64,000 bases of DNA from Tautonia plasticadhaerens (GTDB taxonomy: Bacteria > Planctomycetota > Planctomycetia > Isosphaerales > Isosphaeraceae): assembly GCF_007752535.1 (NCBI RefSeq), contig NZ_CP036426.1, positions 2,170,001 to 2,234,000 on the forward strand. Direction: 5' to 3'. Positions 3,092 to 9,536 of this stretch are shown here, in pieces; the stretch's first letter is position 1; every line of letters starts with the position of its first letter. A program made the translations under genes and the position numbers. The notes below the pieces were generated by a model. It was not told where the DNA came from. It ran no database searches and worked only from the letters and a program-made list of their open reading frames with translations.

Positions 3092-3120
3092 GGCCCGGCC
3101 CCGTGCCGAGGAGGGCTCGC

Positions 3121-6100
3121 ATGTCCGCGACCGAACGACCCGCGCCCCGACCGATGCGCGACCGACGCGGGTTCGTGTATACCCCGGCCGTCGGCCGGGG
3201 GCTCAGGCCCTGGCTCTGGGCCGTCCTGATCGGGTTCGCCCTGCTGGGGGCCACCGGCATCTACATGTCCAGCGTCACCCTGGTGACCTGGCTCAGCGGC
3301 GCCCCGCAGGACACCTACTTCTACATGCTCATGGTCGCCCTGCACCTGCTGCTGGGCATCGTCCTCATCGTCCCGTTCATCGTCTTCGGCTTCGCCCACC
3401 TCGCCACCTCCTGGAAGCGGCCGAACCGGGCGGCGATCCGCTACGGCCTGATGCTGCTGGCCGCCTCGATCGTGCTGCTGGTCTCCGGGGTCGTGCTGGT
3501 CCGGATCGGCGGCTTCGAGGTGCGGGATCCGGTCGTCCGGGAGGTCGGCTACTGGCTGCACCTGCTGACGCCGGTGCTGGCGATCGGCCTCTATGTCCGG
3601 CACCGGCTGGCGGGGCCGAGGATCAACTGGCAGTACGCCCGGCTCTGGAGCGTCGGGGTCACCGTGGTCGTCGTGCTCATGGGCCTGATGCACGCCCACG
3701 ACCCGAGGCAGCTGAACAAGGTCGGGCCGAGGGAGGGCGCGAAGTACTTTTTCCCCTCCGAGGTGAAGACGGCCGACGGCAACCTGATCCCGGCCGAGAC
3801 CCTGATGATGGACCAGTATTGCATGGAGTGCCATCAGGACGCCTACGACGGCTGGTTCCACTCCTCGCACCACTTCAGCTCGTTCAACAACCCGCTGTAC
3901 CTGCATAGCGTCCGGGAGACCCGGAAGGTCGCCCTGGAGCGGGACGGCGACACGCAGGCCTCCCGATGGTGCGCCGGCTGCCACGACGTCGTGCCGTTCC
4001 TCTCGGGCAAGTTCGACGACCCAAAGTACGACGACGTGAACGACCCGACCGCCCACGCGGGGATCACCTGTACGTCGTGCCACTCGATCACGCACGTCAA
4101 CAGCAGCCGGGGCAACGCCGACTACACCATCGAGGAGCCGCAACACTACCCCTTCGCCTACAGCGACAACCCGATGCTCCAGTGGGTCAACCGGACGCTG
4201 GTGAAGGCCAAGCCGGATCTGCACAAGCAGACCTTCCTGAAGCCCCTGCACAAGACGGCCGAGTTCTGCTCGACGTGCCACAAGGTCAACCTGCCGTTCC
4301 AGCTCAACCACTACAAGGACTTCACCCGGGGGCAGAACCACCACGATTCCTACCTGCTCTCGGGGGTCTCCGGCCACGGGGCGCGCAGCTTCTACTACCC
4401 GGAGGTGGCGAAGACCAATTGCACGGAATGCCACATGAACTTCGTGGCCTCCGACGACTTCGGCGCCCAGAACTTCGACGGCGAGGCCGGCCGGGAGATC
4501 CACAACCACATGTTCCTCGGCGCCAACACGGGCCTGGCCGCGGCGCTCGGCGACGAGGAGATGCTGGAGGCCCACACCGAATACCTGACCGACAAGAAGG
4601 TGCGCGTCGACATCTTCGGGCTCCGCGAGGGCGGGACGGTCGACGGCGAGCTGGTCGCCCCGATCCGGCCCGAGATCCCCGAGCTGGAGCCGGGCGCCTC
4701 CTACCTGGTCGAGGTCGTCGTCCGGACCTTGGGTGTCGGCCACCACTTCTCGCAGGGGACGGTGGACTCGAACGAGATCTGGGTCGAGCTGACGGCGAAG
4801 TCCGGCGACCGGGTGCTCGGCAAGTCCGGCGGGATGGACGAGCGGGGATACGTCGACCCGTACTCCCACTTCATCAACGTCTACATGCTCGACCGCGACG
4901 GCAACCGGATCGACCGGCGCAACCCGCAGGACATCTTCGTGCCGCTCTACAACCGCCAGATCCCGCCGGGCGCCGGCCAGGTCGTCCACTTCCGGCTCGA
5001 CGTGCCCGAGGAGGGGATCGACGGGCCGATCGCGCTGGAGGCCGAGGTCAACTACCGCAAGTTCGACCGGACGTACCTCGACCACGTCTACGGCGAGGGG
5101 GTGTGGCCCGATCCCGACGAGGACGGCGAGCCGGACCCGCTGCCGATCGTCGTGATGGCCCGGGACGCGGTCGAGTTGCCCGTCTCCGGGGGCCCGACGC
5201 CGGAGAACCCGCCGTCGCCGATCGAGCAGGAATGGCAGCGCTGGAACGACTACGGCATCGGCCTGCTGCTCGAGGGGGGCGACACCGGCGCCCAGAAGGG
5301 CCTGCTGAAGCAGGCCGAGCCGGTCTTCCTCGCCGTGGCCGAGCGGTACGGCAAGGGGGACGGCTGGGTCAACCTCGCCCGGGTCTACCAGAAGGAGGGG
5401 CGCATCCCCGACGCCCTGGAGGCCCTCCGCAAGGCCGCGGCCGACCCCGAGTTCGCCGCGAAGTGGACGATCAACTGGCTGACCGGCCAGATCAACATGC
5501 GGCAGGGGAACCTCGACGCCGCGATCAAGAGCTTCGAGGACGTGCTCAGCACCAAGATCCCGAGCCGGAAGTTCGACTTCAGCCAGGATTACATGGTCAT
5601 CAACGAGCTGGGCCGGGCCCTCGACCGCCGGGGCCGCATCGAGGCCCTCGACAGCCCCGAGCGGTTCTCCTACATGAGCCGGGCCGTCGACGCCTTCCGT
5701 CGGACGCTCGCGATCGACCCGGAGAACGGCGACGCCCACTTCGGGCTCGGCCAGGCGTATGCCGAGTTCGCCCCCGACCGGTCGGCCTTCGAGCCCTGGG
5801 AAGGGCCCCCGCCGGAGCCGGCGCGGCTGGTGGACCTCGCCGCCGAGGTCGCCGCCCCGGACGCGGGCCCGGGCGCACGGGAGCAGTCCGCCCGGGAGCT
5901 GGCCCGGCAGATCGAGGCCTTCGTGGACGGGCCGAGGCCGGCCTTCGCCTCCCGGGTCGGCACGCTGATCGAGGTGGTCGGGCTGCTCGGCCCGGCGTGG
6001 GAGCGGCAGGCCGACGCGCCGGCGAAGGCCGGGCTGTCCCTCGCCCTGGAGTCGGCCCACAAGGCCCTGCACAACTTCGTCAGGCCGGACGAGACGGCCG

Positions 6101-6264
6101 AGGGCCGGGCCATCCGGATCGCCCGGGAGAAGGACCCCGCGGCCGACCAGAATGCCCAGCCGATCGTCATCCACGACCTGCACCGGCCCGGGGCCCCCGG
6201 GTTGCCCGACGCCGCCGGCCGCACCGATCCCGACTCCCGAGCCGAGAGCGAGGTGACGGAATGA
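3121..6264 (+). CDS. Membrane-anchored multihaem cytochrome c with C-terminal TPR domain
   Basis: ATG 3121 is chosen because GAGGAGGG ends 5 nt upstream; 1047 residues. Residues 25-200 hold about five hydrophobic helices. Two of them carry pairs of His spaced 14-18 residues apart (for example HLLTPVLAIGLYVRH), as expected for a b-type bis-His membrane haem domain. Next come five c-type haem sites: CMECH near 234, CAGCH near 284, CTSCH near 317, CSTCH near 383 and CTECH near 434, with further His that could be distal ligands. A beta-rich segment follows, then TPR-like helices from about residue 690. The protein probably moves electrons between the quinone pool or membrane and a periplasmic partner. 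Its stop overlaps the start of the CRTAC1-type gene (ATGA at 6261-6264), so the two are likely translated together. The substrate is unknown. Confidence 0.88.
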   Translation: MSATERPAPRPMRDRRGFVYTPAVGRGLRPWLWAVLIGFALLGATGIYMSSVTLVTWLSGAPQDTYFYMLMVALHLLLGIVLIVPFIVFGFAHLATSWKRPNRAAIRYGLMLLAASIVLLVSGVVLVRIGGFEVRDPVVREVGYWLHLLTPVLAIGLYVRHRLAGPRINWQYARLWSVGVTVVVVLMGLMHAHDPRQLNKVGPREGAKYFFPSEVKTADGNLIPAETLMMDQYCMECHQDAYDGWFHSSHHFSSFNNPLYLHSVRETRKVALERDGDTQASRWCAGCHDVVPFLSGKFDDPKYDDVNDPTAHAGITCTSCHSITHVNSSRGNADYTIEEPQHYPFAYSDNPMLQWVNRTLVKAKPDLHKQTFLKPLHKTAEFCSTCHKVNLPFQLNHYKDFTRGQNHHDSYLLSGVSGHGARSFYYPEVAKTNCTECHMNFVASDDFGAQNFDGEAGREIHNHMFLGANTGLAAALGDEEMLEAHTEYLTDKKVRVDIFGLREGGTVDGELVAPIRPEIPELEPGASYLVEVVVRTLGVGHHFSQGTVDSNEIWVELTAKSGDRVLGKSGGMDERGYVDPYSHFINVYMLDRDGNRIDRRNPQDIFVPLYNRQIPPGAGQVVHFRLDVPEEGIDGPIALEAEVNYRKFDRTYLDHVYGEGVWPDPDEDGEPDPLPIVVMARDAVELPVSGGPTPENPPSPIEQEWQRWNDYGIGLLLEGGDTGAQKGLLKQAEPVFLAVAERYGKGDGWVNLARVYQKEGRIPDALEALRKAAADPEFAAKWTINWLTGQINMRQGNLDAAIKSFEDVLSTKIPSRKFDFSQDYMVINELGRALDRRGRIEALDSPERFSYMSRAVDAFRRTLAIDPENGDAHFGLGQAYAEFAPDRSAFEPWEGPPPEPARLVDLAAEVAAPDAGPGAREQSARELARQIEAFVDGPRPAFASRVGTLIEVVGLLGPAWERQADAPAKAGLSLALESAHKALHNFVRPDETAEGRAIRIAREKDPAADQNAQPIVIHDLHRPGAPGLPDAAGRTDPDSRAESEVTE

Positions 6265-8063
6265 ACACCAACGACCCGAAGACCTGGGCGGTCCTCTTCG
6301 CCACCGCCGTCGCCGCCGCCCTGTCGCTGACCGGTTGCGGGGCCGACACCGGGGCCGAGTTCGTCCCGGCGGCCGCCCCCCCCGAGGCGGCGCCGGTCGT
6401 CGAGCCGGCCGCCCTGCCGACGGTCAAGTTCGTCGAGGTGACCGACGAGGCCGGCATCGACTTCGTCCACCACAACGCCGCCGAGGGGGAGAAGCTGCTG
6501 CCCGAGACGATGGGGTCGGGCGTCGCCGTGCTCGACTACGACGCCGACGGCCACCCCGACCTCCTGTTCGTCAATCAACGCCCCTGGCACGCCGAGGAGG
6601 GGGCGGGGGACGCCCCCTCGCCGGCCCTCTACCGCAACGACGGGGCCGGGAACTTCGAGGAGGTGACCTCGGCCGCCGGCCTGGACGTCCCGGTATTCGG
6701 AATGGGGGCGGTCGTCGGCGACATCGACAACGACTCGGATCCCGACCTCTACATCACCACCGTCTCCGGCGGCCTCCTGTTCCGGAACGACGGCGGCACC
6801 TTCGTCGACGTCACCGACGAGGCGGGGGCCGGGGCCGGCGACGGCTGGCTGACCTCCGGCGCCTTCTTCGACCTGGAGAACGACGGGGATCTGGATCTGT
6901 TCCTCTGCTGCTACGTCGAGTGGACGGCCGATTTCGACCGGGCCCAGGGCTTCCAGCTCACCGGGGCCGGCCGCGCCTACGGCCCGCCGACCGCCTTCCG
7001 GGGGGGCCATTGCGTCCTGCTCCGCAACGAAGGCGACGGCACCTTCGCCGACGTCAGCGAGGAGGCCGGCATCCGCCTGGTCACCCCCGAGCTGAAGGAG
7101 CCGATGGCCAAGGCCCTCGGCGTCGCCCCCTTCGACGTGGACGGCGACGGGTTCGTGGATCTCGCCGTGGCGAACGACACGGTCCGCAACTTCCTGTTCC
7201 GGAACCGGGGGGACGGCACGTTCGAGGAGCTGGGGATCGTCTCCGGCGTCTCGTTCGACCCCTCGGGGCAGGTCCGGGGGGCGATGGGGATCGACTGGGC
7301 CCACTTCCGGAACGACCGGTCGCTGGCCCTGGCGATCGCCAACTTCGCCAACGAGATGACGGCGCTCTACGTGGCCGACGACCCGACCCGGATGCAGTTC
7401 ATCGACCTGGCGAACGTCTTCGGCCTGGGGGCCCCGACGCAGCCCCCCCTGAAGTTCGGCCTCTTCTTCTTCGACTACGACCTCGACGGCCGGCCCGACC
7501 TGCTCTCGGTCAACGGGCACCTCGAATCGGACATCGAGAAGACCCAGGCGTCCGAGACTTACCGCCAGCCCGCCCAACTGTTCTGGAACAGCGGCCGGGC
7601 CGGGCCGACCCTGTTCACCCAGGTGTCGAAGGAGCAGGCCGGGCCGGACCTGTTCACCCCGATCGTCGGCCGGGGCAGCGCCTACCTCGACCTGGAGGGG
7701 GACGGCGACCTCGACGTGGTCATGACCTCCAGCGGCGGCGAGGCCCGCCTCTTCCGCAACGACGGCGGGGATGAGAATCACTGGATCCGGATCCGACTCG
7801 TCGGCCGGCGGTCGAACCGGGACGGGATCGGCGCCCGGATCGAACTCAAGGCGGGGGGCCAGGAGCAGGTCCGCCAGCACTTCCCGAGCAAGGGCTACCT
7901 CTCGTCCGTCGAGATGCCGATCACCTTCGGCCTCGGGGGCGCCGATCGGGCCGGGTCGCTGACGGTCCGCTGGCCCTCGGGCAAGGTCGACGAGTTTGCG
8001 GACCTGGAGGCCGATAGGTCCTACTCGATCGACGAGGAGCAGGGCATCGTCCCGAGTCCCTGA
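6261..8063 (+). CDS. CRTAC1 family (FG-GAP / ASPIC-UnbV) lipoprotein
   Basis: It encodes 600 residues. ATG 6261 overlaps the stop of the cytochrome gene by 4 nt. The N-terminus is a lipoprotein signal peptide with lipobox SLTGC, giving a lipidated Cys at residue 26. The body consists of repeated Ca-binding FG-GAP/VCBS motifs such as DYDADGHPDLLFVN, DIDNDSDPDLYI, DVDGDGFVDLAVAN and DLEGDGDLDVVM, typical of an integrin-alpha-like seven-bladed propeller. The last 80 residues match the ASPIC/UnbV region (SNRDGIGARIEL, VRWPSGKVDEF). The family is often found next to multihaem cytochromes or TPR proteins in planctomycetes. It is probably a surface or periplasmic partner of the cytochrome; its biochemical role is not established. 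Confidence 0.9.
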   Translation: MNTNDPKTWAVLFATAVAAALSLTGCGADTGAEFVPAAAPPEAAPVVEPAALPTVKFVEVTDEAGIDFVHHNAAEGEKLLPETMGSGVAVLDYDADGHPDLLFVNQRPWHAEEGAGDAPSPALYRNDGAGNFEEVTSAAGLDVPVFGMGAVVGDIDNDSDPDLYITTVSGGLLFRNDGGTFVDVTDEAGAGAGDGWLTSGAFFDLENDGDLDLFLCCYVEWTADFDRAQGFQLTGAGRAYGPPTAFRGGHCVLLRNEGDGTFADVSEEAGIRLVTPELKEPMAKALGVAPFDVDGDGFVDLAVANDTVRNFLFRNRGDGTFEELGIVSGVSFDPSGQVRGAMGIDWAHFRNDRSLALAIANFANEMTALYVADDPTRMQFIDLANVFGLGAPTQPPLKFGLFFFDYDLDGRPDLLSVNGHLESDIEKTQASETYRQPAQLFWNSGRAGPTLFTQVSKEQAGPDLFTPIVGRGSAYLDLEGDGDLDVVMTSSGGEARLFRNDGGDENHWIRIRLVGRRSNRDGIGARIELKAGGQEQVRQHFPSKGYLSSVEMPITFGLGGADRAGSLTVRWPSGKVDEFADLEADRSYSIDEEQGIVPSP

Positions 8064-8243: not shown

Positions 8244-9536
8244 TCAGGATGCGTCGAGCGGGGAGGAGAGCCCCGGGGAGCCGGCCTCGATTCGGGCGAT
8301 CGACTCCTGGGCCTCGTCGTGGAAGGGGTCGACGGAGAGGGCGGTGTCGAACCAGGCCCGGGCCTCCAGGGATCGGCCCAGGGAGAGGCACGCTCGGCCG
8401 ATCTCGACGCAGAGGTCGGGGTCATCGAGGTCGGGGAGCGTCGAGGCCCGGGAGATGAGCTGGCCGAGCGCGTCGTTGCGTCGCACCCGATCGAGGTAGG
8501 GCGCCGCCTCCTCGGCACGGCCGAGCATCGTCAACGCCCGGCCGAGGTGGAAGTTCACCAGTCGATCGGTCGGGTCGTTCTGCTCGGCGGCCCGGAGGTG
8601 GGGCAGGGCGGCCTCGGGGTCGCCGCGGATCAGCTCGATCTCGCCACGGACCCGGGCCACGGCCGGGTGATCGGCCGGCGCCCGGGCGATCATCTCCTCG
8701 GCCCGGGTCAGGTCGCCGCCTTCGATCGCCATGCCGGCGCGGAGGGCGGCGGCATCGGGATCGGTCGGGGGGAGGGGCGTGAGGATTCGACCGGCCTCGT
8801 TTAGGTCCCCCGATCGGCGGATCGCCTCGGCCAGGGTCAGCCTTGAGTGGCGATCGCCCGGGTCTCCGGCGAGGAACCGCCGGAGGTTGTCCAGGTCCTT
8901 CTCGTAGTTCCAGTTGACATTGCGGATCTTGCTCCAGTGGAGCACGTAGCTCGGGGGCAGTTCCCCGAGCGAGGCGAGGGCAGCGAGCTGCTCGTCGAGC
9001 TCGCGAAGCCTGCGCTGGATGCTGTAGATGAAGCTGAGCTCGCGGTGGGCCTGGACGTGGCGGGGCTGGAGGCGGACGGCCGCCAGGAAGGACCGCTCGG
9101 CCTCGGGCACGCGGCCGAGCCGCATCTCGACCTGGCCCAGCAGGAGCCGGGAGATCGGGGCGATCGGGTGGTCGTCGGGGATCCGGGCGAGCTGGTCCCT
9201 CGCCTGCTCAGGGCGATCGGTGGCGAGTTGCACCTGGGCCCGGAGCAAGCGGTCCAGCGGCGTCGGCTCCCGGGAGGAGGCGACGCGATCGAGCAGCGCC
9301 TCCGCCCGGTCGTGTCGGCCGGCGCGATGGGCGTCCTGGGCGAGCTGGAGGAGGCGATCGAGCTCGGCGGGGGACGGCGGCCTGGCCGCCGCGAGCCAGA
9401 TCAGGGCGAGGGCCGCGATCGCGGCACCGCCGAGGGCGAGCCGGATCGATCGTCTTCGGGAGGGGAGGGGAGGGGCATCACGGCCCCCTCCGCGGCCGGT
9501 CGGGGGGCCACTCACCGATTCGCCGGGATGGGTCAT
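8244..9536 (-). CDS. Membrane-anchored TPR protein
   Basis: It encodes 430 residues. After about 30 polar residues there is one transmembrane helix (LALGGAAIAALALIWLAAA), so the protein is probably anchored with its C-terminal bulk outside the cytoplasm. The rest is made of tetratricopeptide-like helical pairs with repeated A-x-x-x-GR/L-x-x-A-x-x-x-F patterns (for example HRAGRHDRAEALLDRV and SLGRSLEARAWFDTAL). It is probably a scaffold for protein contacts; the partner is unknown. It is the third gene of a minus-strand run with the DUF1559 protein and the small lipoprotein, 88 nt after the latter. Confidence 0.8.
   Translation of the reverse strand: MTHPGESVSGPPTGRGGGRDAPPLPSRRRSIRLALGGAAIAALALIWLAAARPPSPAELDRLLQLAQDAHRAGRHDRAEALLDRVASSREPTPLDRLLRAQVQLATDRPEQARDQLARIPDDHPIAPISRLLLGQVEMRLGRVPEAERSFLAAVRLQPRHVQAHRELSFIYSIQRRLRELDEQLAALASLGELPPSYVLHWSKIRNVNWNYEKDLDNLRRFLAGDPGDRHSRLTLAEAIRRSGDLNEAGRILTPLPPTDPDAAALRAGMAIEGGDLTRAEEMIARAPADHPAVARVRGEIELIRGDPEAALPHLRAAEQNDPTDRLVNFHLGRALTMLGRAEEAAPYLDRVRRNDALGQLISRASTLPDLDDPDLCVEIGRACLSLGRSLEARAWFDTALSVDPFHDEAQESIARIEAGSPGLSSPLDAS

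Follow-up and report, generated by a model that had tools for sequence, protein, structure and literature searches.

In the inner-membrane b/c quinol oxidases CbcL, MtrH and MtoC, as in the protein described here, a putative two-haem b-type domain is fused to a multihaem c-type domain. CbcL carries nine c haems in its N-terminal half and six C-terminal helices similar to HydC/FdnI; most members of its family have six helices (four listed homologues have five, and one has four), and three helix histidines are conserved (PMC6295460; citations of this paper, and of PMC11976967 and PMC12758564 below, refer to parts of each). ImcH begins with three helices, followed by seven haem motifs that include a CX3CH, has an atypical first motif beside the helices and is similar to NapC/NirT; the cited part of PMC6295460 describes no b-haem histidine pairs in it. 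Among pentahaem cytochromes, the cable-bacteria members are described as extracytoplasmic and soluble, and their sPHC is related to ExtKL, to Thermochromatium tepidum c552 (structure 5ze8) and to the archaeal nanowire protein AvECN, whose four haems align with haems I, III, IV and V of sPHC (PMC11976967). Finally, a CRTAC1 gene flanks the genes for homologues of hydrazine synthase alpha and beta-gamma, an example of linkage between FG-GAP/CRTAC1 and multihaem genes (PMC12758564). Here we describe a gene pair from Tautonia plasticadhaerens, encoding a b/c multihaem cytochrome and a CRTAC1-type propeller lipoprotein, in a window of 64,000 nucleotides (contig NZ_CP036426.1, positions 2,170,001 to 2,234,000) of its 9.4 Mb genome. 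The pair is conserved across many planctomycetes yet appears to be unnamed, and among the matches listed from the open-access literature we recognised no description of the helix-haem fusion or of the pair. Its parts, in window coordinates, are as follows (types A and B are defined below).

3121..6264, + strand: type-A b/c multihaem cytochrome gene, an open reading frame (ORF) of 1047 residues
3187..3705, + strand: five-helix membrane domain, residues 23-195, predicted N-in/C-out, with H75, H93, H147 and H161 as putative ligands of two b haems
3820..3834, + strand: haem c site I, CMECH, residues 234-238
3970..3984, + strand: haem c site II, CAGCH, residues 284-288, candidate open (five-coordinate) haem
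4069..4083, + strand: haem c site III, CTSCH, residues 317-321
4267..4281, + strand: haem c site IV, CSTCH, residues 383-387
4420..4434, + strand: haem c site V, CTECH, residues 434-438
4576..5190, + strand: beta domain, residues 486-690, between the haems and the tetratricopeptide repeats (TPRs), with an invariant GH motif (H541)
5350..5790, + strand: TPR region, residues 744-890
5791..6261, + strand: C-terminal tail, of which residues 965-1040 are present in 52/82 loci
6261..6264, + strand: ATGA stop-start overlap of the cytochrome and propeller genes
6261..8063, + strand: CRTAC1-type lipoprotein gene, 600 residues, with lipobox LTGC, six calcium-loop-like repeats, six FG-GAP_3 matches and UnbV_ASPIC

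We consider it reasonably probable that the two proteins form an electron-transfer complex, composed of a quinone-coupled b/c cytochrome and a propeller subunit, at the periplasmic face of the cytoplasmic membrane. Helices 2 and 4 would carry a pair of b haems, arranged as a stack spanning the membrane, that trade electrons with the quinone pool and feed the pentahaem domain. From this domain the electrons would reach a periplasmic acceptor, unless the whole route runs backwards. The propeller and the solenoid would hold the acceptor or the assembled complex, and an open haem, probably haem II, may be where a small substrate reacts. More tentatively, and at somewhat less than even chances, the pair may belong to a class of quinone-coupled multihaem oxidoreductases not yet described, to be placed next to CymA, CbcL and ImcH. 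In this class the propeller would be obligate, as would a solenoid (TPR or HEAT) in most members, and an open c haem would turn over a periplasmic substrate; it would be a near-core respiratory complex of the Isosphaeraceae, common in other, largely oxidase-bearing Planctomycetota.

The cytochrome differs in build from each of its described counterparts. Compared with CbcL, the order is reversed, with the helices (residues 26-192) first and the five haems (234-438) after, and the five helices, a number that some of the listed CbcL homologues also have, bear four invariant histidines at spacings of 18 and 14; the beta domain, the TPRs and the CRTAC1 partner set it apart too. It shares with ImcH the succession of N-terminal helices and c haems and, in type B, an atypical first motif (CX4CH) beside the helices, but has five helices and two helix histidine pairs. 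As in the pentahaem c552/PHC family, five haem motifs precede a beta domain, whose strands are of low confidence here, whereas the fusion to a membrane b-type domain and to TPRs sets it apart. The CRTAC1 gene, unlike that beside the hydrazine synthase homologues, follows a membrane b/c cytochrome.

We surveyed a sample of 392 Planctomycetota genomes, of which 182 contained some match and 72 a close homologue (at least 41% identity). Within the Isosphaeraceae, this differently built candidate quinone-multihaem protein had a match in 39 of 45 genomes, including all four of the genus Tautonia. The closest named relative found was Tautonia sociabilis (Isosphaeraceae, Planctomycetota), with a cytochrome 82% identical. 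A second phylum, apparently Verrucomicrobia, yielded matches in 12 of 194 genomes, two of them close, and in one close copy (L153) the partner gene lies directly after the cytochrome. The set that we call type A comprises 82 loci: 66 of the 72 close homologues, 14 outer members (30-34% identity), L039 and L040; the close homologues of the window's own genome and of G015, G150, G190, G224 and G326 fall outside this set. Type B comprises 16 of 20 further loci.

The five helices span residues 26-58, 64-96, 103-129, 137-163 and 170-192 in a low-confidence full-length model, and a model of the domain by itself (mean predicted local distance difference test score, pLDDT, 63.4) places the same five within 3 residues. 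Helix 2 carries H75 and H93 and helix 4 carries H147 and H161, all invariant in 82/82 homologues, and their spacings are exactly 18 and 14 in 83/83 type-A (query counted) and 16/16 type-B proteins. This differs from cytochrome b of PF00033, with His pairs 14 and 15 apart in all 12 members fetched; in PF01292, a 14 pair occurred in all six strong members fetched and an 18 pair in helix two of one. Loops 2-3 and 4-5 are rich in lysine and arginine (means of 4.38 and 3.86 across 65 sequences, against 0.77 and 1.89 for loops 1-2 and 3-4), which by the positive-inside rule would place the haem domain on the periplasmic side, with H75/H147 nearer the periplasm and H93/H161 nearer the cytoplasm. From this layout we infer the binding of two b haems across the membrane. 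An earlier note on this DNA had read five helices with paired histidines, five CXXCH motifs and TPR-like helices in one 1047-residue chain, as the ORF, Pfam and the models bear out; its cytochrome b-like membrane domain, read here as a putative diheme b-type domain feeding the c haems, gains support from the invariance of the histidine pairs and of the haem-site residues. The paired histidines were missing from just four relatives, all soluble.

These four (L133-L136; families f46, f77 and f99) are pentahaem proteins with a GH-bearing beta domain, and have neither the five helices and their histidines nor a CRTAC1 neighbour.

All ten cysteines of the cytochrome fall within its five CXXCH motifs, while 5000 shuffles of the chain gave a mean of 0.0026 such motifs and a maximum of one. 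The cysteines and histidines of the five sites are invariant in 82/82 homologues and in 16/16 type-B proteins. Sites I-IV are CX2CH in 83/83 type-A sequences (query counted); site I is CX4CH in 15/16 type-B sequences; site V is CX2CH in 77/83 type-A sequences, CX3CH in 4 and CX4CH in 2, these widened sites belonging to L042, L044, L046, L075, L085 and L087. Over the Pfam cut-offs, the chain matched Cytochrome_C554 at residues 234-322 and TPR_16 and other TPR families at about 744-890. A profile of the haem and beta regions matched the pentahaem cytochrome c552 5ze8 (E-value 1.7e-15), with haems I-III accounting for most of the alignment; further segments, at haem IV, haem V and the HAMPTG-bearing beta domain, were collinear, each insignificant by itself. 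Its next match was cytochrome c554 (E-value 2.4e-6). The strands of the beta domain lie between residues 494 and 686 in the low-confidence model. The beta domain and the tail go beyond what the earlier note described. In the tail, H980 is kept in 62 and H984 in 61 of 67 close homologues, and no separately encoded copy of the tail was seen among the loci fetched.

Outside the helices, the invariant histidines beyond the haem motifs are H250, H368, H463 and H541, in 82/82 homologues and 16/16 type-B proteins, which likewise all retain the four helix histidines; H541, in the GH motif of the beta domain, is a candidate distal haem ligand. There are five haems but four conserved distal histidines, which suggests that one haem is open, and because of this count, and because haem II is the one missing from AvECN, haem II is the likely open haem. 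Lacking a conserved distal histidine, it may be a reaction site for a small substrate. The pair might then be primarily a periplasmic enzyme, with haem II reducing or oxidising a small nitrogen, sulfur or oxygen compound, the b haems coupling it to quinone and the propeller gating the substrate or acting as a scaffold. Just four invariant non-motif histidines for five haems would fit such a role, as would the C554-type Pfam match and the placing of the related sPHC with potentially catalytic cytochromes in which at least one haem is pentacoordinated (PMC11976967). We nevertheless regard it as rather unlikely, though the most serious of the alternatives, since no third gene occurs in more than 12/82 loci, and hence no substrate gene points the way; moreover, the identity of the open haem is read from sequence, and the fifth haem may be liganded by methionine, lysine or a less conserved histidine.

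The downstream partner scored 107.6 bits for FG-GAP_3 (cut-off 26.9), in six stretches, and 73.1 for a single UnbV_ASPIC (cut-off 23.4), the domain content of a CRTAC1 protein; its lipobox was read by eye. No NCBIfam model exceeded its cut-off for either protein. A CRTAC1 match starts at most 1.2 kb downstream of the cytochrome in 72/82 type-A loci. Among the ten exceptions, the CRTAC1 gene of L119 overlaps the cytochrome stop and is therefore adjacent, that of L105 lies 3.5 kb away, and the contig of L040 ends 187 bases past the cytochrome, and another contig of the same genome has a 52% match close to its start; unlinked partner orthologues were found for L048 (53% identity), L069 (53%), L070 (49%) and L114 (47%). 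In type B the partner adjoins in 15/16 loci, and the sixteenth locus ends at a contig end. The ATGA overlap with an FG-GAP/UnbV lipoprotein gene, already reported in the earlier note, was confirmed at 6261-6264; a start gap of -4 was chosen in 32/72 homologous pairs, a count biased because the script took the start nearest to -4.

A 99-protein tree, built by a quick method with midpoint rooting and support from the Shimodaira-Hasegawa-like approximate likelihood ratio test only, placed type-A partners and five unlinked ones on one branch (support 100) and type-B partners on another (92). Ten CRTAC1 proteins from outside the pair, namely eight own-genome paralogues and the best matches of G116 and G245, lay apart from these and grouped together only at a support of 46; four partners shorter than 500 residues (L041, L073, L085 and L115) were left out. 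The branches and the linkage together indicate that cytochrome and partner are co-inherited, beyond mere neighbourhood, in agreement with the association first proposed from this locus. The CRTAC1 proteins, abundant and unexplained in planctomycetes, gain from this pair a context that can be tested, that of a redox-complex subunit.

The own genome also shows an expansion of FG-GAP/CRTAC1 proteins, with 149 FG-GAP_3 matches and 24 matches to the query partner, many in frames of about 1000 residues.

The earlier note had further proposed a quinol-to-surface route with the lipoprotein as docking partner; the lipoprotein would then sit on the outer surface and dock an extracellular acceptor. The lipobox of the query partner agrees with this, and so does the likeness in architecture to CbcL-type enzymes, which oxidise quinol in extracellular electron transfer (PMC6295460). 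However, of 72 type-A partner N-termini, a script assigned 62 as anchor-like, 9 as lipobox and 1 as other, and revision by eye (L047 to anchor; L101, L112 and L115 to lipoprotein-like) gave about 61 anchors and 11 lipoproteins, by a procedure that used no signal-peptide program and does not distinguish an anchor from a cleaved signal peptide. The partners of the query and of L039 are lipoproteins. Type-B partners have a hydrophobic N-terminal stretch, with a lipobox by eye in 0/15. The trait common to the partners is probably attachment to the cytoplasmic membrane, which favours its periplasmic face and disfavours a surface role.

The neighbourhood likewise offered the surface route nothing: no third gene was common to the pair loci, the most widespread neighbour cluster occurring in 12/82 type-A loci, where the flanks of many ended at contig ends and neighbours were not annotated individually. 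No outer-membrane conduit is therefore conserved beside the pair, and a wider conserved operon was rejected on the same count. In addition, 71 of the 72 close-homologue genomes (all but G117) carry a haem-copper oxidase, against 249/320 of the others (kinship ignored), so an extracellular acceptor is not needed. We consequently consider the surface route improbable, and the earlier interpretation as upheld in part, its observations having been confirmed.

An extra ORF lies close to the pair in 12/82 loci (L043, L049, L057, L062, L074, L077, L083, L088 and L102-L105). It measures 1085-1329 residues, apart from one of 884 at the end of a locus, and in several cases sits directly upstream of the cytochrome. 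Both of the two that we scanned contained FG-GAP repeats, one also ASPIC and the other also TPRs.

Returning to the two-protein complex at the cytoplasmic membrane, the solenoid provides a further link between the partners. Type-A cytochromes include the TPR region, whose alignment columns have a mean occupancy of 0.95 across 68 loci; the 68 longer type-A partners have 576-675 residues, and Pfam found no TPR in the three partners scanned (query, L043 and L093). Type-B cytochromes, by alignment, have no TPR region, and 5/15 of their partners carry C-terminal repeats, TPRs in L122, L124, L128 and L130 and HEAT in L121. The same module type fused to either protein suggests that cytochrome and partner work together.

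The type-B partner of L121, of 1209 residues, has a long HEAT-repeat C-terminus where the others have TPRs.

TPR and CRTAC1 domains are interaction modules, and with 24 matches to the query partner in its own genome, the CRTAC1 paralogues are many. Both points would suit a redox sensor, or a part in envelope assembly or adhesion: the haems would then register the redox state, and signalling or protein assembly would fall to the propeller and the TPR arms. We find this very unlikely, because the strict conservation of the helix histidines, their exact spacing and the haem sites fits electron transfer, and neither a regulator nor any other third gene is widely conserved next to the two.

Several results weigh against the proposed complex. 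The query membrane domain lies under every Pfam cut-off (Ni_hydr_CYTB 13.6 bits vs 30.1), and of 65 homologues the uncharacterised DUF7139 matched 15 and Ni_hydr_CYTB 12, the latter counted at E-values up to 1 (best 1.9e-6). Its profile scored no better against small b561 and bc1 profiles than block-shuffled controls: the bc1 score of 21.15 was equalled by 18/100 shuffles (reversed alignment, 20.33) and the b561 score by 44/100, so that homology to b561/bc1 is not demonstrated. All four helix histidines were paired with those of the cytochrome b profile, in an alignment whose score lies within the shuffle range. Against the Protein Data Bank, the domain profile gave a single insignificant match (E-value 0.017). 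The structure models are weak: the whole cytochrome reached a pLDDT of 45.6, from a three-row alignment of the query and two related loci that leaves it unfit for haem geometry, and the membrane domain alone reached the 63.4 given above. With the latter model, Foldseek returned no match at an E-value of 0.001 or better, and the best hits of VIA-align were unrelated helical bundles (Z 7.5), with bc1-complex chains lower (Z 5.9 and 5.5).

Other points concern the partner, the solenoid and physiology. The outer type-A members L109, L116 and L117 have no adjacent partner; the best partner matches in the genomes of L116 and L117 are 32 and 31% identical over most of their length, and that in the genome of L109 belongs to a second, type-A pair there. 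Genomes G116 and G245 have no close orthologue. In ten of the 15 type-B pairs the partner has neither TPR nor HEAT and the cytochrome has no TPR, which means that not every pair has a solenoid, and CRTAC1-TPR fusions may simply be common in these genomes anyway. The own genome also encodes a regular cytochrome b and haem-copper oxidases, so the pair is not the sole quinol route. A role as replacement for complex III was rejected, since cytochrome b was present in 18/21 genomes searched, the own genome included. Judging from gene content, the pair is a putative additional outlet or inlet of the quinone pool, and most of the organisms that have it also possess an oxidase.

The own genome contains six other C554-type matches, whose loci show four or seven CXXCH motifs. 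Three of its ORFs (L145, L146 and L147) hold seven CXXCH motifs apiece and seem to begin with a hydrophobic stretch.

Around the pair, a Shine-Dalgarno-like GAGGAGGG (3108..3115, + strand) lies 5 bases 5' of the ATG at 3121. A promoter and terminator scan of the locus found none, with counts near the shuffle means (0.3 and 1.4). On the upstream side, 756 bases separate the end of an ORF at 2364 from the cytochrome ATG, with a mechanically called ORF of 138 residues in between. Downstream, a convergent gene (8244-9536, - strand) ends 180 bases past the propeller gene; its product resembles TPR proteins and has, as judged by eye, a membrane segment at the N-terminus, and the gene is syntenic in Tautonia sociabilis at 67% identity.

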